IMG/VR virus record: IMGVR_UViG_3300050014_000185
Coordinates: 1-35,655 of that record
Reading direction: 5' to 3' (one strand)
From: a virus
Length of the DNA: 35,655 nucleotides
Within the stretch, counting starts at the first letter, position 1. Every line of letters starts with the position of its first letter. The notes under the pieces were generated by a model. That model did no database searches, had not been told where the DNA came from, and saw only the letters and a program-made list of their open reading frames with translations. The translations under genes were made by a program, and so were the position numbers. Below, piece by piece: positions 1 through 35,645 of the stretch.

Positions 1-410
1 TATGCGCTGCGATACTGCCATCAGCCATCGGAGGCCGTGCAGCTTGAGGCAGTCAAGCAAGATGGCTGTGCGTTGCGATACTGCCATCAGCCCTCTGAGG
101 CCGTGCAGCTCGCAGCCGTGCAGAAAGATGGCTATGCGCTGCAATACTGCCACCAGCCCTCGGAGGCCGTGCAGATCGCAGCCGTGAAGCAAGATGGCGA
201 TGCGCTGCGATACTGCCGCCAGCCCTCGGAGGCCGTGCAGCTCGCAGCCGTGCAGCAAGATGGCGAGGCGCTGCGATACTGCCATCAGCCCTCGGAGGCC
301 GTGCAGATCGCAGCCGTGCAGCAAAATGGCGATGCGCTGCGATACTGCCACCAGCCCTCGGAGGCCGTGCAGCTCGAAGCCGTGAAGCAAAATGGCGATG
401 CGCTGCAGTA
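1..410 (+). repeat. 66-bp coding tandem repeat array
   Basis: About six copies of a 66-bp unit run head to tail without spacers, each containing the words ctgcgatactgcc and tcggaggccgtgcag. The unit is a multiple of three and stays in frame with the protein above, so the array is coding. Two other frames also stay open for stretches because of the periodicity; those are shadows. The array runs off the left edge of the window. Confidence 0.9.
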
Positions 411-504
411 TTTTAAGCGTGCATGGATAAAAGAAACAAAGCGAAAAATCACAATCGAAGAAATCGAAAGTGAGCTTGGTTTTGAAGTTGAAATCGTAAA
501 ATAA
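1..504 (+). CDS. 22-residue tandem-repeat protein (DUF4116-like), 5' end outside window
   Basis: The frame is open from base 1, so the N-terminus is missing; the internal GTG at 37 is not a convincing start. Residues up to about 135 are six to seven copies of a 22-residue unit with the pattern ALRYCHQPSEAVQLAAVQQD, ending in a basic, non-repeat tail of about 30 residues (KETKRKITIEEIESELGF). The pattern (Q-[TP]-x-E-x-x-x-L-A-A-V-x-Q-[DN]-G-x-A-L-x-Y) resembles the helical-repeat proteins grouped as DUF4116-like, which occur in phages, large viruses and bacteria; their role is unknown. Repeat copies differ by only a few bases and are clearly richer in G+C than the following genes, suggesting recent expansion or acquisition. 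The next gene on the same strand starts 11 bp downstream. Confidence 0.75.
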   Translation, partial: YALRYCHQPSEAVQLEAVKQDGCALRYCHQPSEAVQLAAVQKDGYALQYCHQPSEAVQIAAVKQDGDALRYCRQPSEAVQLAAVQQDGEALRYCHQPSEAVQIAAVQQNGDALRYCHQPSEAVQLEAVKQNGDALQYFKRAWIKETKRKITIEEIESELGFEVEIVK

Positions 505-1157: not shown

Positions 1158-1246
1158 GCCTAACATTCAATGAACCCGACACCACCGAAAGCGCATCTTG
1201 GCAAGGTAGTCTCTAGGCGGTGGCGCGGGTTATTTTGGAGTTAGGC
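1158..1246 (+). other. attC-like recombination site (integron cassette type)
   Basis: GCCTAAC at 1158-1164 fits the R'' core (RYYYAAC) and GTTAGGC at 1240-1246 fits the R' core (GTTRRRY); they are perfect complements. Inside are an 8/8-nt unpaired spacer, then a stem of AACCCG (1173-1178) with CGGGTT (1226-1231), a bulged A at 1179, and CACCACCG (1180-1187) against CGGTGGCG (1218-1225) with one mismatch, closed by a loop of about 30 nt. Core boxes, unpaired spacer, inner stem with an extrahelical base and a variable loop are the architecture of attC sites, which are 57-141 bp in known integrons. It lies directly after one small gene and 7 bp before the start of the next. No integron integrase is in the window. 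A plain structured RNA element is the alternative. Confidence 0.5.
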
Positions 1247-3445: not shown

Positions 3446-4369
3446 TTACCAGTTGTGAATTTCTTTTGTCGTTAAGCTCATTGCATCATTATACTCTGTT
3501 TGATAAGCAACCTCATCAATCATCACAGGCCATACGGTTTGATCTCCTGTCCATTTTACAGGCTGTCCAGCACCGTCAAGCATAATTACATCACCTTTGT
3601 TAATGGGTAGATAATCAGACATCAAGAGAGGTGGAAAAACCTTTCCACCGTCTGGATAATAAATATCACCAAGCTGCTTGAATACCGTTACCTTTGTTGG
3701 CTTACCAATATTTCCACGATTCCATTCTACCAAAAAATTAAGTATTTCGTGAACCAAATCATATTCATAACGTGCTTTTGCTGGATCAAATTTGCCATGG
3801 GGAACGGGGCCGACTTCGACCGTAAATCCGTTACGGCTCAATGAATCAAAAGACGTATCAGCAGTAATATCGTCAGGAGTATACCAAACATTAACCCAAG
3901 GAAATTTCTTTACAACATGTCCGATCACGCGCTTATTCAAGGGAGTCGCTTGGGAAACGATTATGCATATTCCCATGTTCGCGGTGGTGTTGTGCAGGTC
4001 TAAAATAAAATCTGGATTCTTAGGATTCAAAGGTTTTCCACCAAGAGCCTCTGCGATCTGTCGAGCGATCTTCAATTCTCTTGGGTCGCTTTCGCTTGGT
4101 GCTGCATATAGAGTGTCAAACCCAAATTGGTCATTCATATCCACATCTTGAAAACGAACGCACTTAGAATCGTTGTCTACGTCAGCTTTTATCATTGAGA
4201 CGCGCAATCCTTCACGCTCAAGCTCTTTCGGATTCTTGAGCCAGTAGTTCCCCAACTCCATAGACGTTTGTTCATTTCCATGCACACCTGTCGCAATCAC
4301 AACCGTCCTGATCGGATCGGTACAAACTGATTCTTTAGTGATTGAGTATGTGATTGATAGGCTGTTCAT
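3446..4369 (-). CDS. Aspartoacylase/AstE-AspA family zinc amidohydrolase
   Basis: The 307-residue length and motif order match the aspartoacylase/aminoacylase-3 branch of the M14-like AstE/AspA family, which removes acyl groups from N-acyl amino acids. Visible motifs: ATGVHGNE (zinc ligands His30 and Glu33), KCVRFQDVDMN (Arg72, Asp77, Asn79), DLHNTTANMG (zinc ligand His126) and VEVGPVPHG (catalytic Glu185). The C-terminal beta domain also aligns with human ASPA in order (PINKGDVIMLDG, WPVMIDEVAY). The family usually has DLNR here; this protein has DMND, so the substrate-binding Arg is Asp80. That suggests an altered substrate, while the zinc and catalytic residues look intact. The start overlaps the stop of the upstream membrane protein (ATGA). 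Its place just before the lysis genes suggests late expression. Confidence 0.85.
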   Translation of the reverse strand: MNSLSITYSITKESVCTDPIRTVVIATGVHGNEQTSMELGNYWLKNPKELEREGLRVSMIKADVDNDSKCVRFQDVDMNDQFGFDTLYAAPSESDPRELKIARQIAEALGGKPLNPKNPDFILDLHNTTANMGICIIVSQATPLNKRVIGHVVKKFPWVNVWYTPDDITADTSFDSLSRNGFTVEVGPVPHGKFDPAKARYEYDLVHEILNFLVEWNRGNIGKPTKVTVFKQLGDIYYPDGGKVFPPLLMSDYLPINKGDVIMLDGAGQPVKWTGDQTVWPVMIDEVAYQTEYNDAMSLTTKEIHNW

Positions 4370-8170: not shown

Positions 8171-10936
8171 TCAATGGTACAGGTCAATAAATACGCTCTT
8201 TCCAACGCCTGAGAGATCGGAAAGAAGGTTTATCGAATGATCGAATGCAAACATAATCGTTTGATGGGAATGCTGATACACAAGGCTTTCTAAAGCTCCA
8301 TCAGAAGGGCGCATAACCTTAACCCCGCTCATAAGTTGCTCAACGAACGCGCTGCAATATCCAAATGCATCAACAGGGGTGGAACCGTCAATCCAGAATA
8401 TGTTAGCTGAATCATCATGCAAAGAATAATCTGTTTCAGTTGGCAATTCTAAAAACATGAATGGACTTGATCCAGAATCAAGCTGAATGTTGTACTCTAC
8501 AAATCCTCTAGTCGCTGGATTCCTCATGTTTTTTGCAACGGTGTTGTTGGTGAACAAGGCGTAGTGCCTTTTACCTGTTGCAGCCAAAGCACACGACCCC
8601 CCCACACTCGTTGACATTTGAATGGAATTCCAGTAGGTCGAATAGCTACCTACAAACGCATTCGATGAGATCAAAGCCACTGCAATAAGGGTATTCAGTG
8701 TTGTCGCATTTAGCACGATAGGAGTTCTATCTGCGTCCGTTCCTTCGAGCTTGTTTCCGTGCGCGAGGAATGAAATTATTCCCGCATTGTCGCTTATCTC
8801 AAAAGTCAATCCTAAAATCTTATTCGCGCAAATCATCGGGAAGCCAATACAATCAAGCGACCACGTACCACCAGCCGTTCCAGATAGCTTATTGTTTACG
8901 ATTGTTATCGCTGGTGTGTTTGGTGCGTGGAACTCTGCTTGTATTGATTCATTATCGTGAATGCTGATTCCTTGCGAAAATAATGTGGGGCTTTGTATAA
9001 CGTAATCACATAAGATATTGCTGCGACTTATTTCAAAAAATCCACTCCTAGTACCTGTCTGAGAAACGAATAGGCTACACGATGGCGCACCAATCGTTCC
9101 AGCAAAATCAACTTGGTCTAGTCTTGTAGTTGCATTATTCGCATAAAGCAAAGAAGACCCTTCGGGAGCAGTAACGCTAAGATCATATAAGCTTATTTCC
9201 CACCCTGAGACGGTGAGCGCGGGGAATGCTCCACCAATGGTTATTTCTCCGTTATGGATAGCAAGCAAAGGGAAACTAGCTGATGCTGTGGAGCTTAATG
9301 TACATGGCAATGAGCATAGGTCTAGTTCACCAAATCCAAATGCTCCAGAGTTTGCCTTTGCACATGCTAAAGCCCTTTTGAATGCTGTATTCTGTTGGCT
9401 GGTTGACGCTCCATTAGGGTAGAACCAAGCAATCAAAGAAGGCTGGTTCAGGAATGAGAATCCGTCTGAATTCACTACTCCAATATGGGGAAGCTGTGCA
9501 GCCAGTAAATCAACAGGATTCGCGGTAGTAGCTCCTTGCAAAGTACCTCGCTCCCAAAAGAAATTTAAGTGAACAGTTTTTTCGTTCGAGAGAACTGTTG
9601 AAAAGTTATTGATTGGCAAGTCAAGAATGAACCGCGCTTGCTTTGTCAGTCTTGGATAGATGCTTGTAACGACATACGAAAGGTCTATGCTCTGTGTCTC
9701 ATCAGCGAAAGATGAAAACCAAGATGAACGAATCACATGATACTGAATATCAAGGCGCGTTAGGTCACCAGTAAAGACGGAACCTGTAAGCGTTGGCTCA
9801 AGAGTTATTGACCCCATGGCGGCCAATTGTAGCCGATGCGCTGCACTTGCTGTCATGGTGATGTAGTTATTACCGCGAAACACTATTTGCTGTGGCATGA
9901 CTAAATCCGCGCTGAAAGCTCCAAGATCATAGGTTTGGTCAACAACAACCGTATAGCATGGAGTCAGATTCGCAAGCATCACTTCCCAGCGCGAACCACT
10001 ATCATACCCAACCCTGCAACCCCACCAAGATGGGTCTACTTCAAATCCATTTCTAGGGCGTGTAAAGGCTGGTATTACATCGCCTACACTTCCATATAGG
10101 TTTCTGAAAACAAGACCTCTTGGAATATCCGCGATGTCTCCAAATGAGAAAGTTAGTGTTCCGCTGGATAGGTTTTCAAAACTCACGCCTTCGTCAAGTT
10201 TTACAGGGACACCAAAAAACAATGATCCGTATGTATTGAGCTGATAAACGCCACCCGCAAAATAAATTGTCGAAGGCGAAAGAGGGTCTATCGTAGGAAC
10301 AGATCGAATCACATTAAACCTAGATGTCATATCTCCCGAACGGTCTGGGATAATGCCATAGATTCGAGCATCAAGCATATCCGTGGAACCTAAGCGAAGT
10401 CTCCAACGACCCACTGAGGTTACAGAGCTTTGAATGGTCATTCCACCATCATCAGCCATAGAGCTTGTTACATCAAAGAAATAGTCTCGCGAGAAAATGT
10501 CACTTTCTGCGTAGTACCCCAAAACAATGCAGTGAATAGCTGTTGCAGGGTCTAGTAAGCGCAAGGCTGCAACAGTTGTCACAGTGCTTACAACAACGGT
10601 ATCTTCTGCTGGTATAGGCTCATCAAGCCCCCATTCTTCCCACTGATTATCATCACGCCAAAACTCTGCGGGGTCGGTTAGGTGATTTAATCCAATGAAC
10701 TTTTTTGCATAGACTAAGCTACCACCAACGCCAAGAAATATTTGAAATTCTGAACGTCCATTACCGTCCAGCATGATCTCATTTGAGTCAAATGGAATGG
10801 TAAGGGCATCATCTTTGAACGGAATCTTAGGAACAAGCGTATCTATATCTACATAGGTCAATTTACCATACGACAAAGGAAGTCCATTGCTATCAAAATA
10901 GACCGGTCGCTTATCAACGCTTGCAACGAATGGCAT
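8171..10936 (-). CDS. Large tailspike/fibre protein B (921 aa)
   Basis: The N-terminal adaptor (DKRPVYFDSNGLPLSYGKLT and NEIMLDGNGRSEFQIFLG) would attach the spike to the tail. A conserved block at about residues 120-200 (VLGYYAESDIFSRDYFF, GRWRLRLGSTDMLDARIYG) leads into a long Ser/Thr/Asn-rich region with the periodic short strands of a right-handed beta-helix. The last residues are SVFIDLYH. Related segments run in the same order through the upstream 941-residue protein, so the two are tandem paralogues. Beta-helix spikes of podoviruses bind and often cut surface polysaccharide; I cannot identify catalytic residues here. The start shares one base with the paralogue's stop (TGATG). Confidence 0.75.
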   Translation of the reverse strand: MPFVASVDKRPVYFDSNGLPLSYGKLTYVDIDTLVPKIPFKDDALTIPFDSNEIMLDGNGRSEFQIFLGVGGSLVYAKKFIGLNHLTDPAEFWRDDNQWEEWGLDEPIPAEDTVVVSTVTTVAALRLLDPATAIHCIVLGYYAESDIFSRDYFFDVTSSMADDGGMTIQSSVTSVGRWRLRLGSTDMLDARIYGIIPDRSGDMTSRFNVIRSVPTIDPLSPSTIYFAGGVYQLNTYGSLFFGVPVKLDEGVSFENLSSGTLTFSFGDIADIPRGLVFRNLYGSVGDVIPAFTRPRNGFEVDPSWWGCRVGYDSGSRWEVMLANLTPCYTVVVDQTYDLGAFSADLVMPQQIVFRGNNYITMTASAAHRLQLAAMGSITLEPTLTGSVFTGDLTRLDIQYHVIRSSWFSSFADETQSIDLSYVVTSIYPRLTKQARFILDLPINNFSTVLSNEKTVHLNFFWERGTLQGATTANPVDLLAAQLPHIGVVNSDGFSFLNQPSLIAWFYPNGASTSQQNTAFKRALACAKANSGAFGFGELDLCSLPCTLSSTASASFPLLAIHNGEITIGGAFPALTVSGWEISLYDLSVTAPEGSSLLYANNATTRLDQVDFAGTIGAPSCSLFVSQTGTRSGFFEISRSNILCDYVIQSPTLFSQGISIHDNESIQAEFHAPNTPAITIVNNKLSGTAGGTWSLDCIGFPMICANKILGLTFEISDNAGIISFLAHGNKLEGTDADRTPIVLNATTLNTLIAVALISSNAFVGSYSTYWNSIQMSTSVGGSCALAATGKRHYALFTNNTVAKNMRNPATRGFVEYNIQLDSGSSPFMFLELPTETDYSLHDDSANIFWIDGSTPVDAFGYCSAFVEQLMSGVKVMRPSDGALESLVYQHSHQTIMFAFDHSINLLSDLSGVGKSVFIDLYH

Positions 10937-13761
10937 CAGTTTCCCTCGTACATGTCAATGTAAACGCCATAAGTAAGTAGTACGGCGGGATCTGTGATTA
11001 TAGGCAAATTTTCGAAGCGCAAAAGTACACCATTGTTGTAACCTACACCACCTAATGCATGGCTATCCTGTACCGATTCAAAACCAATAAACCGAGGGAC
11101 ATTTGGCAGCAAGTCAGCCGTTGGACTTACGTTTATTTCCCTGAATGAATCTGGTGATAGCGAATAAGGCAAACAAAAAATACCGTTGTTGTCATAGAAA
11201 TCCATGAATGCACGTACGTCGCTTATTGGTCGAATCTTTGGGTTCTGAACTGATCCGCGAGTACATGGTACATAGATATTTGCTTTCGCGCTTGCATTGT
11301 CAGTCATGCAAATTTTATGCGAAAGCATAGTTGTTGAAAAACAATTCGACCACATGGATTGAATACCAACCCCTGCAATACCCAGCTCATTTGGGGTGAA
11401 AGATATTGCGATTAATGGAGTTGTAACCGAACCAGTCCAAGAGTTTTCTGAACAGATTGCACCAGCAAATACAGTGTTTACCGTCCTTGCCTCATAAATA
11501 ACACGGCTATACTTTTTGTCTGTACTTTCAAACTGATTTCCAGAAACAATAGCATCGATGAATCCAGCGTTGTCGAGAATAAAAAGATCGCACTGATAGA
11601 ATCTATTTTCCTCAATCAATCCAGAATCTACGCAAGATAGCTGATACTTTCCAACTACTCCACCAGTTATTTTGTTGTTGTTCAGGCGAACACAGCAATA
11701 ATCAGTAAGCAAGTCGCCTACAAGATTATGATTATCGTGTAGGTTAAGATTTGACATTCCAGATTCGGCACTAACGATATACCCCGCCTCAATATGGCAG
11801 CGCGAAATATCGCAATACGTAACAGATCCACCTGTTAGCACTTCGACCAAACTAGCCGATAGAGCCGTACTATAATAAGATGAAAAGTCGCATGATTCGA
11901 CGGTTAGAGAGTCAACAGAACCGCCAGAAGATACTGATACCAATGGCGCATTGTTTGCCGAACTAATCACGTTCACATTGAAGAAATCAAGACGAGGAAT
12001 AGAAGAGGAGACCTGAACCGCTGGGTAATTCACAGACATCGATAGAAAGCCGTTCTGAACTTTGCAGCCCAAAGATGTTCCCGATGTCGTAGCGGGTAAA
12101 TTGATCGTCAAATTACGTCCGCACAACTCAAGAATAGATCCACTATGAAGGGCTGAATTTATTCCCGATACCCAAGCGTTTGTAAGTTGATCCGTGGTTG
12201 CAGAAGGTGGAATCCACCAAGGTATAAGAGCCTTGTCACAAGCAACAATGAAGCCATTTGTACCAAAGATATATTCGTTTCCAAAGTCTGAATTCGTAAG
12301 CCATACATGGCCTGAACCAGTCTTCTTTGAAACCAAACCGTACTCATGTTTGAAAATGACATTTGCTGTCATTAATTGGCTGGTTCCCAAGTTGCTGAAC
12401 AGGCTTACTGGGTGGTCAAAAATGAATGGCGTGTTCTGAGTAATTACAACAGTGCCCGAATTTTGACCGTTCGCATTTATGAAAAGATAGTCCAGCGGAC
12501 TAGTATTCCCATCGCCTACATCATCGGCAAACCAAGAAGACCGAATCTCTTCATAGTTCGTAAATTTGAGATAGGAGTAAGCACTAGAGCCGATTGCAGG
12601 GCCTTGAAACAGAACACCACGATGTACAGGAGGATTTGAATAGTAGGTGACGGACGTGTCGTTTATGATTCTACCAGAGCCAACAAATTCGATATAGTGG
12701 GCGAACTGATTTAAAATAAATCCACCAGTCCCCTCAAACCGAATTGTGTTTGGTATAGAGAAATCTTGTGTAAGTACGCTAATCGTAACTCGGCTATCGC
12801 AATAGAGAATGTAGTTAGCGTTTACGCTTGCCACAGCAATGCGCAGCCTTTCCCCTTGATCGCTTGACGTATTTACGACTCCAAGCCAAGCAAGATTCAC
12901 TTCTGAATTATCGGTATCATTTAGGAATTGAATCGTTACAGTGCCGGGACTAAAGCCAGCCTTCAAAGGCGCCGTTCCAAGTATCTTGAACGTGTTCATG
13001 AATTTTAAAGTGTAGGTAGTTGAAATTGCTTTGTTCGAGAAATAGACTCCTAAGTCTAATTTCGTTATGCAATTCAAATACTGCGTATCATTTCCAGCGA
13101 CGCAATACGTTCCCTGCGGGAAATAAAGAGTCTGTGGAAGAAACTTATTTGCTGCAATCTGCGCTTCGGCTTGATGGATAGAGCCGTTACGTGGTGTTGA
13201 TCCACCTGCGATTGCGCCAAAGATTCGCACGTCAAGGACATCGGTATTTCCGAGGCGAAGAATCCACGATCCAGCACCACCAGAACCGCGCTTGATTACC
13301 GTACCGCCATTCCCCGCTTGCGTATCTCCTGTGACCCATTCGTAGTATCTGGTATATAAGTCACCCTCTGAGTAATATCCAAGCACGTAGGCACGTTGAA
13401 ATAGGCTAGTGTCAATTGCTGCGAGTGCCGCGATTGTCGCAACATTTGTAATGTTCGTGATTGACGTTGCTGTTTCTGGTACGATTCCGTAATCGTCCCA
13501 CTGATTGTCATGGGTTACCGATCCAAACATAAATGACTGGATCGTGTATGCACCTTCCCCAAGATAAATTTCTGTCGGCGTTCTTCCATCAATTCCAAGA
13601 ATCTGAGGATTCAAAGCCGCAACGGTTCGCGCTGCATCGGTATAAACAGTCTTCGGGGTAGTTGTGCTACCATGCTCAAAATAGGCAATAGAACCGTTCC
13701 TAAGCGGGAGGCCATCGGAACCAAAATATACAGGGCGTTTATCGGTCGATGAAACGAACAT
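10936..13761 (-). CDS. Large tailspike/fibre protein A (941 aa)
   Basis: Paralogue of the next gene. The adaptor reads DKRPVYFGSDGLPLRNGSIA, NPQILGIDGRTPTEIYLG, GAYTIQSF; the second block reads VLGYYSEGDLYTRYYEW and SWILRLGNTDVLDVRIFG. After that come TLYFPQGTYCVAG (entry to a beta-helix typical of spike and pectate-lyase-like folds) and long repeats of short strands with Asn/Ser/Gly turns (SCDFSSYYS, SRCHIEAGY, NHNLVGDL). The C-terminus is VYIDMYEGN. It probably forms a trimeric spike recognising host surface polysaccharide; depolymerase activity is possible but unproven. It abuts the internal-protein gene at 13762, and its stop is fused to the start of the second spike. Confidence 0.75.
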   Translation of the reverse strand: MFVSSTDKRPVYFGSDGLPLRNGSIAYFEHGSTTTPKTVYTDAARTVAALNPQILGIDGRTPTEIYLGEGAYTIQSFMFGSVTHDNQWDDYGIVPETATSITNITNVATIAALAAIDTSLFQRAYVLGYYSEGDLYTRYYEWVTGDTQAGNGGTVIKRGSGGAGSWILRLGNTDVLDVRIFGAIAGGSTPRNGSIHQAEAQIAANKFLPQTLYFPQGTYCVAGNDTQYLNCITKLDLGVYFSNKAISTTYTLKFMNTFKILGTAPLKAGFSPGTVTIQFLNDTDNSEVNLAWLGVVNTSSDQGERLRIAVASVNANYILYCDSRVTISVLTQDFSIPNTIRFEGTGGFILNQFAHYIEFVGSGRIINDTSVTYYSNPPVHRGVLFQGPAIGSSAYSYLKFTNYEEIRSSWFADDVGDGNTSPLDYLFINANGQNSGTVVITQNTPFIFDHPVSLFSNLGTSQLMTANVIFKHEYGLVSKKTGSGHVWLTNSDFGNEYIFGTNGFIVACDKALIPWWIPPSATTDQLTNAWVSGINSALHSGSILELCGRNLTINLPATTSGTSLGCKVQNGFLSMSVNYPAVQVSSSIPRLDFFNVNVISSANNAPLVSVSSGGSVDSLTVESCDFSSYYSTALSASLVEVLTGGSVTYCDISRCHIEAGYIVSAESGMSNLNLHDNHNLVGDLLTDYCCVRLNNNKITGGVVGKYQLSCVDSGLIEENRFYQCDLFILDNAGFIDAIVSGNQFESTDKKYSRVIYEARTVNTVFAGAICSENSWTGSVTTPLIAISFTPNELGIAGVGIQSMWSNCFSTTMLSHKICMTDNASAKANIYVPCTRGSVQNPKIRPISDVRAFMDFYDNNGIFCLPYSLSPDSFREINVSPTADLLPNVPRFIGFESVQDSHALGGVGYNNGVLLRFENLPIITDPAVLLTYGVYIDMYEGN

Positions 13762-32579: not shown

Positions 32580-32714
32580 CGTGTATTCGGTTTAATCGCA
32601 CGGCTCAAATGTTGAAATTCCGTCTGGCGTTAAAAACTGTATGGAACTTCACTTAGGTTTTTATTGACTGTCTTATACTTTTTTGTCCGGTCGAGTCTTC
32701 CCATGACTGGTAGT
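32580..32714. other. Convergent intergenic gap
   Basis: 135 bp between the ends of rightward and leftward genes. I find a 6-bp stem with one wobble (CCGGTC..GACTGG, 32687-32718) but no U tract on either strand, so no convincing terminator, and no further ORF. Confidence 0.4.
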
Positions 32715-32984
32715 TCACTCTTCCTTTTGTTTGTTTGTTGTGAGCGGATTTTCTGTCCAAAGATCTGCAATTTTTTTGCATTTGTCTGTGTCAACCCATA
32801 TTTCCCAGCTCATGTATGCAGCTTCTTTTGTTGGTTTTTTGTTACCCGTGAGAGGGAATAATTCGAATCCGTCCCTCTCCCCGCAGTCCATCATGTGCGC
32901 TTCTGTATAGCAGCCTACGACATAGAGTCCGTCACATTCGCGTAGCTCTGGTTTAGATTCGCATACTGGGCATTTAGTTACCAC
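32715..32984 (-). CDS. Lar-like zinc-ribbon protein (89 aa)
   Basis: The N-terminus KCPVCESKPELRECDGLYVV, followed by a second Cys group and KEAAYMSWEIWV (about residues 53-64), matches the plan of the Lar family (CPFCG..P.L....YxVxC......T.EEAIEAWN). Lar of the Rac prophage eases host type I restriction by promoting DNA modification. Here the second Cys pair is spaced differently (VVGCYTEAHMMDCG), so function may differ. The start overlaps the helicase stop by 7 bp, so it is read as the last gene of the replication operon. Confidence 0.5.
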   Translation of the reverse strand: MVTKCPVCESKPELRECDGLYVVGCYTEAHMMDCGERDGFELFPLTGNKKPTKEAAYMSWEIWVDTDKCKKIADLWTENPLTTNKQKEE

Positions 32985-34222
32985 TCTAGATCCTGTTGTT
33001 CGGTTGATTCGTAAAGATACAACCCCCTACATAGTACTTTTGAGTCTGGAATATATCCTGTTTGCCTAGCTTTGAGGGCATTTGATACCCATATGTGGCT
33101 TGTATCTGCGATAGACTGACCTGATTCTGATTTAATTTCAGATCTCCAAATACAAATGATCCCATCGACCGATGGCATGATGTCCCTAGACCCCGCTAAC
33201 CAATTGATACGACCGGTTTTAAACTCCTCTCCATTAGAGTTGTATTGAGCTAAAACTAAGATCGGTACAGATAGTTTTTTTGCGATCATCTTTATTTTTC
33301 GAATCACAAATTTGCTTTTTTCGTGCTCCGTTTCAAATCTCTTTTCCGTCTCAATCCGCCCTAGGTAATCAATTAAAACGTAGTCTGGACGGTTTTTATT
33401 TTTAATTTCGACTTGGATTGTCTGCTCTATTTCCTCGACGGTTATTGTCGATAAATCCACCGTCCTAAAAAGTGGCATCATTCGCTCTTTGATTTTGTCG
33501 AACGACGTTTTAGCGCATTCCCATGTCCAAGCAACGCTTTGTCGCATTTCGCTAAATGATCCTGTCGAATGCTTGTATGCATGGATTTCGAAGATTCGTT
33601 TAACAACATCAGGCACGGTCATGTCTACGCCAAAGTAGAGCACTTTTTTTTCTGCAAAAATTTGCAAGGCAAGGTTTGTTTTACCTGCGCTCGATGTCCC
33701 AGCCAAAAGATAGACAGATCCCGACGAAAAATATTTTAGGTACTCCGTCATAGACGGGATTGAGCACTCAAAAGATTTCGTCTGCGCAAAATGCTCTGTT
33801 GTCTTTTTTATCGAGCCGTCAGCATCAAAAACCTCAACCCCTGTATTTCCCCCTACAAGGTCTATACAAGGGTCTGTTTCATCTGATAGGCGTCTAAGTA
33901 CCTTCGACACCTTTTCGACCTCTACAAGCTTCCTAAACCGTGCTAGAACGATTGCTACTCCATTATCGATTGCGTGCTGCTTCGTGGAGCTGCTTTTTAG
34001 GAAGTTTACATGGCTCCATGACTCTCGGGTCGCTTTGCTGTCTGCTCTCCAAAATTTTTGACCCTGATCCATCTCTTGGGCGATAAACCGAGCGTTTCGA
34101 GACATGAACATTTGAGCAGTAAGTTCGAACTCTGATTTTGTTGCATCATTTTGGTACAACCCTAGAGCGTAGGCCTCTGCATATTCGATTCCATCGACTT
34201 GGAATTGTCTCACTAGGTTCAT
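32978..34222 (-). CDS. DnaB-like replicative helicase
   Basis: ATG 34222 gives 414 residues, with GGAAGG upstream and an ATGA overlap on the previous stop; the ATG at 34234 is less likely. The C-terminal two thirds is a RecA-like helicase domain. It has Walker A GTSSAGKT (about 172-179), KVLYFGVDMTVPDVVKRI after it (motif H1a), Walker B YVLIDYLGRI and VPILVLAQYNSNGEE (the DnaB Q/N motif), followed by GSRDIMPSVDGIICIWR. The N-terminal 130 residues do not look like a canonical DnaB N-domain. It would unwind DNA at the fork with help of the upstream winged-helix protein. Confidence 0.85.
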   Translation of the reverse strand: MNLVRQFQVDGIEYAEAYALGLYQNDATKSEFELTAQMFMSRNARFIAQEMDQGQKFWRADSKATRESWSHVNFLKSSSTKQHAIDNGVAIVLARFRKLVEVEKVSKVLRRLSDETDPCIDLVGGNTGVEVFDADGSIKKTTEHFAQTKSFECSIPSMTEYLKYFSSGSVYLLAGTSSAGKTNLALQIFAEKKVLYFGVDMTVPDVVKRIFEIHAYKHSTGSFSEMRQSVAWTWECAKTSFDKIKERMMPLFRTVDLSTITVEEIEQTIQVEIKNKNRPDYVLIDYLGRIETEKRFETEHEKSKFVIRKIKMIAKKLSVPILVLAQYNSNGEEFKTGRINWLAGSRDIMPSVDGIICIWRSEIKSESGQSIADTSHIWVSNALKARQTGYIPDSKVLCRGLYLYESTEQQDLEW

Positions 34223-35034
34223 TTTTCCTTCCATGGCTCAATGTCTAGATCCATTCGAGCCATTAGCTCACGGCCTAACTGCTCAACTCTAGCTTTCGAT
34301 AGCTTAGGCTCAGGTTTCATCATTGGGATTTCTGGTGGGGCGATCTGCTGCGCATTTCCGTCTGGTTGAAAAAGCCCAGTGTATCCTTTCTCGATTGAGA
34401 AATTTATCATCGCGATTGGGTCTGGACTTTTCTCAAGCTTTTTGAGCTGAAGGCTTTTTGTCGATTCGGTTAGCTTCTGTTTTTTCTCGACCTTGTACTT
34501 TTGCCAACGATCCCATGCTGTCAAAAAGTCTGGAATCAGACGAAGTTTTTCCGGAATTTCTGACTTCCACTTTGGGGAAAGGGGTGTATTATTCTTTTCA
34601 TTCTTTTCATTCTTATCATTCTTGTTAGTGTACCGTCTGATGTCCGTCTGATGTCCGTCTGTTGTATCGTTTGTTGTATCGTTTGTTGTATCATCTGATT
34701 GGTACTTATCGTAGTTAAGTATTGTAATCATTGAACTTACAGCGTTTTTTTGTTGTACTATTTGATGTACCGAATCAGAACCCAGATTTGATAAAAATCT
34801 ACGAACTTTTCCGCGAGACCATTTCCAGCGTTTTGCCAGTTTTTCTTCGCTCCAACCAAGCTGTCCACGATCAATTTTTAGAGTAATTCCGCGCACTAAA
34901 ATAGACCCCTCTTTATGGTTCGCGATGAGAAGCATATCGACCCATGCTTGACCACGAGTAAAAGGTTCCTGCAACCAAGCGTCAGAATCTAAAATTTGTC
35001 GATGCAGCTTTATCCAGCCAGTATCATATGCCAT
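34219..35034 (-). CDS. Winged-helix replication initiator/helicase-loader-like protein
   Basis: I start at ATG 35034 (271 residues, MAYDTGWIKLHRQILDSDAW). The upstream ATG at 35061 would overlap the previous gene more deeply. Residues about 5-95 match the N-terminal winged-helix domain of phage replisome-organiser proteins (GWIKLHRQI, FTRGQAWVDMLLIANH, GQLGWSEEKLAKRWKWSRGK). The middle is a low-complexity linker (DDTTNDTTNDTT, then NKNDKNEKNEKN, coded by 12-bp and 9-bp repeats), and the C-terminal part is helical (PDFLTAWDRWQKYKVEKKQK), possibly contacting the helicase. It probably binds the origin and loads the helicase encoded directly downstream. Confidence 0.7.
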   Translation of the reverse strand: MAYDTGWIKLHRQILDSDAWLQEPFTRGQAWVDMLLIANHKEGSILVRGITLKIDRGQLGWSEEKLAKRWKWSRGKVRRFLSNLGSDSVHQIVQQKNAVSSMITILNYDKYQSDDTTNDTTNDTTDGHQTDIRRYTNKNDKNEKNEKNNTPLSPKWKSEIPEKLRLIPDFLTAWDRWQKYKVEKKQKLTESTKSLQLKKLEKSPDPIAMINFSIEKGYTGLFQPDGNAQQIAPPEIPMMKPEPKLSKARVEQLGRELMARMDLDIEPWKEK

Positions 35035-35221
35035 TTTTAAGACCGCCCAGATAACCAGCATCTTTCCATCTATCTACCCATCGGTTATCTGCTGCCATGA
35101 GTTCAGCGGCCTTCTCATGGGCTCCTGACCTATGCAATGCTTCAATGGACTGTAAAAAAAGATATGCAAGCCACTTTGATCTGTGTGGAAATTTATTATG
35201 TGCGCCAAATGGTATTGACAT
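35024..35221 (-). CDS. Hypothetical protein (65 aa) heading the replication operon
   Basis: ATG 35221 has AAAGGATAAA directly upstream, a strong site. The 65-residue product (MSIPFGAHNKFPHRSKWLAY) is helical with Trp-rich C-terminal half (SGAHEKAAELMAADNRWVDR, WKDAGYLGG). The gene overlaps the initiator-like gene by 11 bp, suggesting coupling. No family recognised. A competing ORF in another frame from 35334 lacks such a ribosome site and is rejected. Confidence 0.6.
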   Translation of the reverse strand: MSIPFGAHNKFPHRSKWLAYLFLQSIEALHRSGAHEKAAELMAADNRWVDRWKDAGYLGGLKNGI

Positions 35222-35372
35222 TTTATCCTTTTCGTTTTAGGAACGATAACCAAAACAGAAACAGCCTCTAGTGTGTGAATGTCGTTGCAAACCACGCTCG
35301 TTATGATCCGATAGAGGACTGCATTAAAATACAATTAATCATAGCGTTAAAAGTTTAGCGTACGCATCATTT
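35222..35372. other. Upstream region of the replication operon
   Basis: 151 bp, AT-rich toward 35330-35370 (minus strand TTTTAACG, TGATTAATTG, TATTTTAATG). A leftward promoter is expected here, but no pair of boxes with good spacing stands out. No ORF that I accept. Confidence 0.35.
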
Positions 35373-35645
35373 TCATTCTACGTCCTCTTGGATTTCTGAA
35401 AGCGACGAATTGAGCGACGAATTGAGCGGCCAATCGAGCGACCTATTGAGCGGCCAATCGAGCGACCTATTGAGCGACGAATCGAGCGACGACTTGAGCG
35501 ACGAATCGAGCGGCCAATCGAGCGACGACTTGAGCGACGAATCGAGCGACGACTTGAGCGACGAATCGAGCGGCCAATCGAGCGACGACTTGAGCGACGA
35601 CTTGAGCGGCCAATAGAGCGACGACTTGAGCGACATAGTTTTCAT
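35373..35645 (-). CDS. SLxxSL 12-bp-repeat protein (90 aa)
   Basis: Read from ATG 35645, the product is MKTMSLKSSLYWPLKSSLKS and continues as four-residue units of the types LKSS, LDWP, LDSS and LNRS. The only non-repeat part is the C-terminus SEIQEDVE. Proteins built of SLDxSLxx-type tetrads occur as hypothetical proteins in bacteria and phages; none has a known role. The opposite strand is also open (DLSDESS-type), but it lacks a good ribosome site and would be extremely acidic, so I prefer the minus reading. The upstream region is cut by the window edge 10 bp before the start. Confidence 0.5.
   Translation of the reverse strand: MKTMSLKSSLYWPLKSSLKSSLDWPLDSSLKSSLDSSLKSSLDWPLDSSLKSSLDSSLNRSLDWPLNRSLDWPLNSSLNSSLSEIQEDVE
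35401..35634 (-). repeat. 12-bp tandem repeat array
   Basis: About nineteen 12-bp units, all beginning GAGCG on the plus strand, occur in only five or six versions: GAGCGACGAATT, GAGCGACGAATC, GAGCGACGACTT, GAGCGACCTATT, GAGCGGCCAATC and GAGCGGCCAATA. Higher-order blocks repeat, for example GGCCAATC followed by alternating CGACTT and CGAATC units. There are no spacers, so it is not CRISPR. Length is in frame with the protein above. Confidence 0.9.

Follow-up and report, generated by a model that had tools for sequence, protein, structure and literature searches.

The DNA analysed here, referred to below as the window, makes up a whole IMG/VR virus entry (35,655 bases). It comes from a P22-like podophage: PHROG families were matched for the portal, terminase, head closure and major head proteins. 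This phage and its close relatives are represented by uncultured contigs. An early rightward operon on the + strand begins with a repeat-rich ORF (37-504), an ORF ending in DDLPF, an SSB-like acidic tail (516-776), and a third ORF (785-946). These are followed on the same strand by an ORF of 66 aa (950-1150), an integron-type attC site (1158-1246), a Cys-rich ORF of 79 aa (1254-1493) and a tRNA-Met gene (CAT, 1563-1636). Convergent late-end and lysis genes on the - strand (1637-2854, with the endolysin at 2429-2854) form the downstream border of the operon, and a helicase loader on the - strand (34219-35061) forms its divergent border.

The attC site is 89 bp long, compared with published attC length limits of 57-141 bp (PMC5371416). 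Its top strand lies on the + strand and it folds on the - strand. In + strand order, it consists of the R'' core box GCCTAAC (1158-1164), a left spacer of 8 nt (1165-1172), the left arm L'' AACCCGACACCACCG (1173-1187), a variable terminal loop of 30 nt (1188-1217), the right arm L' CGGTGGCGCGGGTT (1218-1231), a right spacer of 8 nt (1232-1239) and the R' core box GTTAGGC (1240-1246). The two boxes match RYYYAAC and GTTRRRY and are complementary at 7/7 positions. Cleavage is expected at G|TTAGGC, from the position given in PMC9892861. A1179 is a clear extrahelical base on the L'' side (a T on the bottom strand) and G1172 is a possible second one. The A/C mismatch made by A1181 on the top strand becomes a G.T wobble on the bottom strand, and three pairs are possible between the 8-nt spacers. 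The bottom strand folds more stably than the top strand, both with flanks (z of -2.9 vs -1.5) and as the site alone (-17.6 vs -15.5 kcal/mol). The core boxes, the bulged L''/L' stem, the spacers, terminal structure and length, the strand preference and the covariance match described below are all as in attC sites. A preliminary description, made from the sequence alone, had already proposed the core boxes with their 7-bp complementarity, the 8/8 spacers, the extrahelical base, the 30-nt loop and the coordinates, and all of these hold. It also had the Cys-rich ORF starting 7 nt after R', which is correct, with its ribosome site in R' (AGG), which is plausible but weak. As it stated, no second attC follows the downstream gene, and none was found elsewhere in the window.

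The same description likened the Cys-rich ORF after the site to the gene of a real cassette. This needs correcting: canonical order would make the cassette gene the ORF at 950-1150, which precedes the attC on the same strand. The 5' border of this cassette was not located. A GTTAGGC at 982-988 was tried as the border and rejected, as it has no attC and no start codon soon after it; the heptamer is also near its expected frequency (5 found vs 2.7 expected). The flanking genes had been suggested for comparison with integron cassettes, but we found no homologues of ORFs 950-1150 and 1254-1493 or of the endolysin in IMG/VR, so nothing marks the neighbouring ORFs as mobile. A plasmid search with the attC site as query gave nothing useful. 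None of nine phage records, including the window, has a match to Phage_integrase (PF00589), and no intI or attI was seen in the window.

The palindrome alone is just moderately unlikely, because a perfect core with any inner arm of at least 13 pairs also occurs in 36 of 600 shuffled windows (6%). Since shuffling yields such a core and stem now and then, we recast the attC plan as an explicit and strict grammar, in which the stem bulges once, on the L'' side; it was composed after the site had been seen and hence is not blind. The grammar has one match in the window, the site at 1158-1246, and it also matched several class 1 sites. In 3000 dinucleotide shuffles, searched in both orientations, there was one weaker match and none equally good. 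The grammar is specific rather than sensitive, as it misses real attCs (0 of the Vibrio or Shewanella sites were matched). We also built a covariance model, R1, from 23 attCs of bacterial or captured integrons and class 1 integrons, none of them from this phage group. With filters off, R1 scores the window attC at 19.2 bits (E 0.0076 in the window), and the runner-up place has 10.2 bits; a speed-filtered search misses the site. R1 gives approximately 22-35 bits to aadA-type sites outside the training set and 27-40 bits to the attCs of phage TJE1; against these real sites (22-40 bits together), the window attC scores low. A score below the threshold of attC covariance models had been named beforehand as evidence against an attC; in our own model the score is above chance. 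A second model, R2, which was built from 51 sites and treated long loops as model positions, performed less well than R1 and missed the window site.

Over the main aligned blocks, a sister phage, L002 (IMGVR 3300037361_000022), shares 96-99% identity with the window; its contig stops short of the stretch that holds the attC in the window. About 800 bp of L002, lying between the repeat ORF and the helicase-loader side, contain an ORF, a full attC (348-432, 20.2 bits), a second ORF (458-802) and one half (R''-L'') of another attC. Because this segment is absent from the window, near-identical phages differ in attC-bordered genes: the spot at 35276-35373 (- strand) of the window is without an attC, and L002 has a different attC cassette there (L002:113-950). 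A motif common to the window attC and the half attC of L002, GCCTAACNNNYRATGAAYCCGAC, led to the viral contig L112/G049. The window site had been described as solitary, which is true of this record but not of L002 and L112, both of which carry other attCs and cassettes. Two further differences between the sister phages were also seen. Both contig ends of the window (2-504 and 35373-35645) are degenerate tandem repeats inside ORFs, and the repeat copy number differs between the window and L002; these repeats probably broke the assembly. The canonical SSB gene of L002 (3516-3920) is reduced to a remnant in the window (32664-32721), whose early operon holds a different small ORF with an SSB-like DDLPF tail (516-776).

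The phage of L112/G049 is related to that of the window, with 44% identity in TerL, 33% in the portal and 72% in the helicase loader over 138 residues, and the gene order is alike: divergent helicase loader, repeat protein, early operon, and convergent endolysin-like and tail genes. The early operon of L112 has the same borders as that of the window and contains five attCs, whose accompanying genes run the same way. Lying between these attCs are an unknown ORF, a radical SAM protein, an N6_N4 DNA methylase (N6_N4_Mtase) and another ORF; the last ORF in L112, of 71 aa, is the positional counterpart of the Cys-rich ORF in the window. Two of the L112 attCs have the arms of the window site, attC d with TTCAATGAACCC and GGGTTATTTTGGAGTTA and attC c with CAATGAACCCGACACCACC and CTCTAGGCGGTGGC; the window's L'' arm is that of attC c. 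The last L112 attC has a body unlike that of the window site, followed by the same junction, GTTAGGCTAATGCGA.GAAATT; the window's downstream junction TAATGCGATGAAATTT (1247-1262, + strand) is thus common to both (TAATGCGAGGAAATTA). Sequence that is unlike before R' and alike after it could be the pattern left by IntI exchange at G|TTAGGC, as judged from this one genome pair. In L112, the same 26-nt leader, ACACAACCTTCGGTTGGATCGAGGAG, occurs after two of the attCs (3495-3520 and 2420-2445, - strand), before genes that are unrelated to each other (radical SAM and methylase), as if a built-in translation leader were common to cassettes. Two tandem large ORFs of the window (8171-10936 and 10936-13761) both match L130:9769-12357 (L112/G049), which suggests a duplication in the window phage.

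Covariation among the attCs of this lineage is strong, with paired changes that keep the stem. When seven lineage attCs were aligned to the model, 91% of cells were paired, and double changes were found in 24 cells, compared with a mean of 8.9 in shuffled alignments. The covariation score was 0.481, compared with 0.184 for shuffled alignments and at most 0.117 for slid ones; fitting the alignment to the model does favour the structure, yet the difference is wide. Five of the seven core pairs never vary, and the CTAAC of R'' is invariant in 7/7 sites. Invariant core pairs are a requirement of a recombinase site. The preliminary description had held that the same hairpin kept in related phages with varied core boxes would speak against an attC; in the relatives, it is the stem that varies and the core boxes that are fixed. 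Wobble pairs in the lineage show a strand bias of the expected sign, which is not significant (6 vs 2, p 0.14).

Several other explanations of the site need to be weighed. The best of them is that the site is a decayed relic, a former attC that is carried passively and in which recombination has ended. The low model score and the single site fit a relic, and the truncated half attC in L002 indicates that decay does occur in the lineage. However, the core boxes match at 7/7 positions, the stem is intact, and paired changes have kept the stems of the lineage, and we therefore regard a relic as unlikely. It is considerably less likely that the site is a hairpin of phage RNA or DNA that serves some other purpose (as a terminator, a processing site or a protein-binding palindrome) and resembles an attC. 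There is no Rfam match at the site and no T run, the core heptamers barely vary while the stem changes, copies lie between unrelated genes in the L112 array, and the sister phage L002 has such a site elsewhere. These observations have to be set against the position between two genes of one operon, the ability of the top strand to fold as well, and the suggestion (PMC9892861) that attCs are weak terminators. We give even less credence to the joining of host integron DNA to the phage by misassembly or an error at a prophage boundary: the window site is 1.2 kb from a contig end, and the arrays in two other records, G008 and G011, are also near contig ends, but the L112 array is inside its contig with phage genes on both sides, the array of MW202573 is inside a circular genome, and the window site is followed by phage genes and is colinear with L112. 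A chance palindrome is the least credible of all, despite the shuffled windows that hold a perfect core and some inner stem and despite the picking of the site in a scan for oddities, since the attC grammar match and the covariance score are far rarer and homologous attCs are at the same place in a relative.

The structure, model score, orientation, covariation and kinship with the array attCs of related phages support the conclusion that the site is an integron-type attC. Very probably, it is a true attC in a docking spot that this lineage of P22-like podophages has in its early operon, where a host integrase could swap cassettes. The docking spot lies between the divergent replication genes and the convergent lysis genes and, depending on the member of the lineage, contains one to at least five attC-bordered small genes.

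attC sites recombine as folded single strands, chiefly the bottom strand, through the action of IntI (PMC5371416, PMC8946536); it has been proposed that phage infection supplies these single strands (PMC8946536). Phage-borne attCs, including those of TJE1, recombine with IntI1 in a published assay (PMC9892861). We postulate that phage DNA exposed as a single strand would allow the bottom strand of the attC to fold into its hairpin. The integrase of a host integron could then bind the L and R boxes and cut R' at G|TTRRRY, and cassettes could be excised, inserted or swapped with no change to the downstream flank. Since no tyrosine recombinase was detected in these phages, the reaction would depend on a host IntI acting in trans. 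We infer that host IntI recombines these sites, that they are used during infection to some benefit of the phage, and that cassettes are captured and spread in this way. Because the related arrays carry anti-restriction enzymes (DNA methylases and Mom), a likely benefit would be the swapping of counter-defence genes. More tentatively, and with rather more doubt than confidence, we speculate that this podophage lineage might keep a permanent cassette dock without an integrase of its own, borrowing host IntI while infecting to swap small early genes, including those for anti-restriction.

Homologous and illegitimate recombination are thought to account for most gene exchange among phages. With attC docks, a phage lineage would be able to draw on its hosts' cassette pool and could move cassettes from cell to cell. 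A colinear spot with different cassettes, together with near-identical phages that differ there, makes this directly testable with the existing assay.

That phages can carry attCs is known from earlier work. Qi et al. 2023 (PMC9892861) described integrase-less attCs in virulent or uncharacterised phages, MW202573, TJE1, P12002L and PH101 among them, and the cargo of those phages, like that of the present arrays, includes DNA methylases as well as small genes of unknown function. MW202573 is P22-like and distantly related to the window phage (TerL approximately 31% identical). Qi et al. counted clusters of at least two sites, and the accessible text of their paper reports no common docking position. 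In the present lineage, by contrast, the spot is colinear and its cassettes turn over, and phages that are nearly identical carry different cassettes. What is new is this fixed spot for docking and its turnover of cassettes; we found no description of such a spot in one phage lineage in the literature searched.

The window site shares with class 1 attCs (aadA1, aadB) the RYYYAAC/GTTRRRY boxes, L''/L' arms with a bottom-strand T bulge after CCG, and spacers of 7-8 nt; it differs in its longer terminal loop, the lack of attI and intI, and its phage context. As in sedentary chromosomal integrons, the cassettes hold mostly unknown genes, and the L002 attC resembles one in an Ignavibacteria bin (L125). 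Unlike those integrons, the phages have one to approximately 12 cassettes, with no integrase detected and no attI seen. The window record, without intI and attI, is not a complete integron. Nor is its one attC a CALIN, defined as at least two attCs without an integrase, whereas L112, G011, G008 and MW202573 are all CALINs. IntegronFinder 2, which uses this two-site rule, itself states that single sites can be real.

We searched other phages with the attC model. A first set comprised 50 phage records, 47 of which were TerL relatives retrieved regardless of attC content. Matches were found in L002, MW202573 and TJE1 (the latter two already published), G008 and G011; the other 45 records (approximately 1.3 Mb) had no match at E<=0.1. 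A second set of 42 records added matches in G049, G080 and G084; G080 and G084, like G011 and G008, hold further arrays. These rates are lower bounds, as the fast search misses weak sites such as that of the window. By eye and model, G011 has approximately 12 attCs in 4 kb and G008 approximately 8 in 3 kb. The cargo includes Mom in G011 and N6_N4 methylases in L112 and G008, consistent with the anti-restriction cargo that Qi et al. note in phage attC arrays (PMC9892861). The Mom-family DNA modification gene is at L110:2003-2623 within its array (Pfam E 1e-40). In G011, G008 and MW202573, the attC top strand and the cassette genes run in opposite directions, which is not so in the window, L002, L112 or TJE1. 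Antiparallel arrays lie at 582-4529 of L110 (G011:1-8000), 4235-7086 of L111 (G008) and 2281-3738 of L003, and in them gene stops are in or beside the R' box, unlike in classical integrons.

The number of matches is too small to claim that attCs are enriched in this group of phages: of 88 records retrieved regardless of attC, 4 matched, compared with 0 of 23 P2-like records, a count that leaves out six records with TerL 98-99% identical to that of an integron-carrying Shewanella prophage, four of which match. P2-like viral records with TerL of this identity to the Shewanella M16-3 prophage that match the attC model are L134, L135, L139 and L164, which makes the association recurrent. A search for possible hosts with a strict attC motif gave 0 genomes. 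A relaxed motif gave seven stretches, of which two metagenome bins, L125 (Ignavibacteria) and L127 (Fibrobacteria), hold attCs. The integron-integrase model scored above its cut-off in an Alteromonas genome only. The likeness of the L125 attC to that of L002 is a weak hint at the host group.
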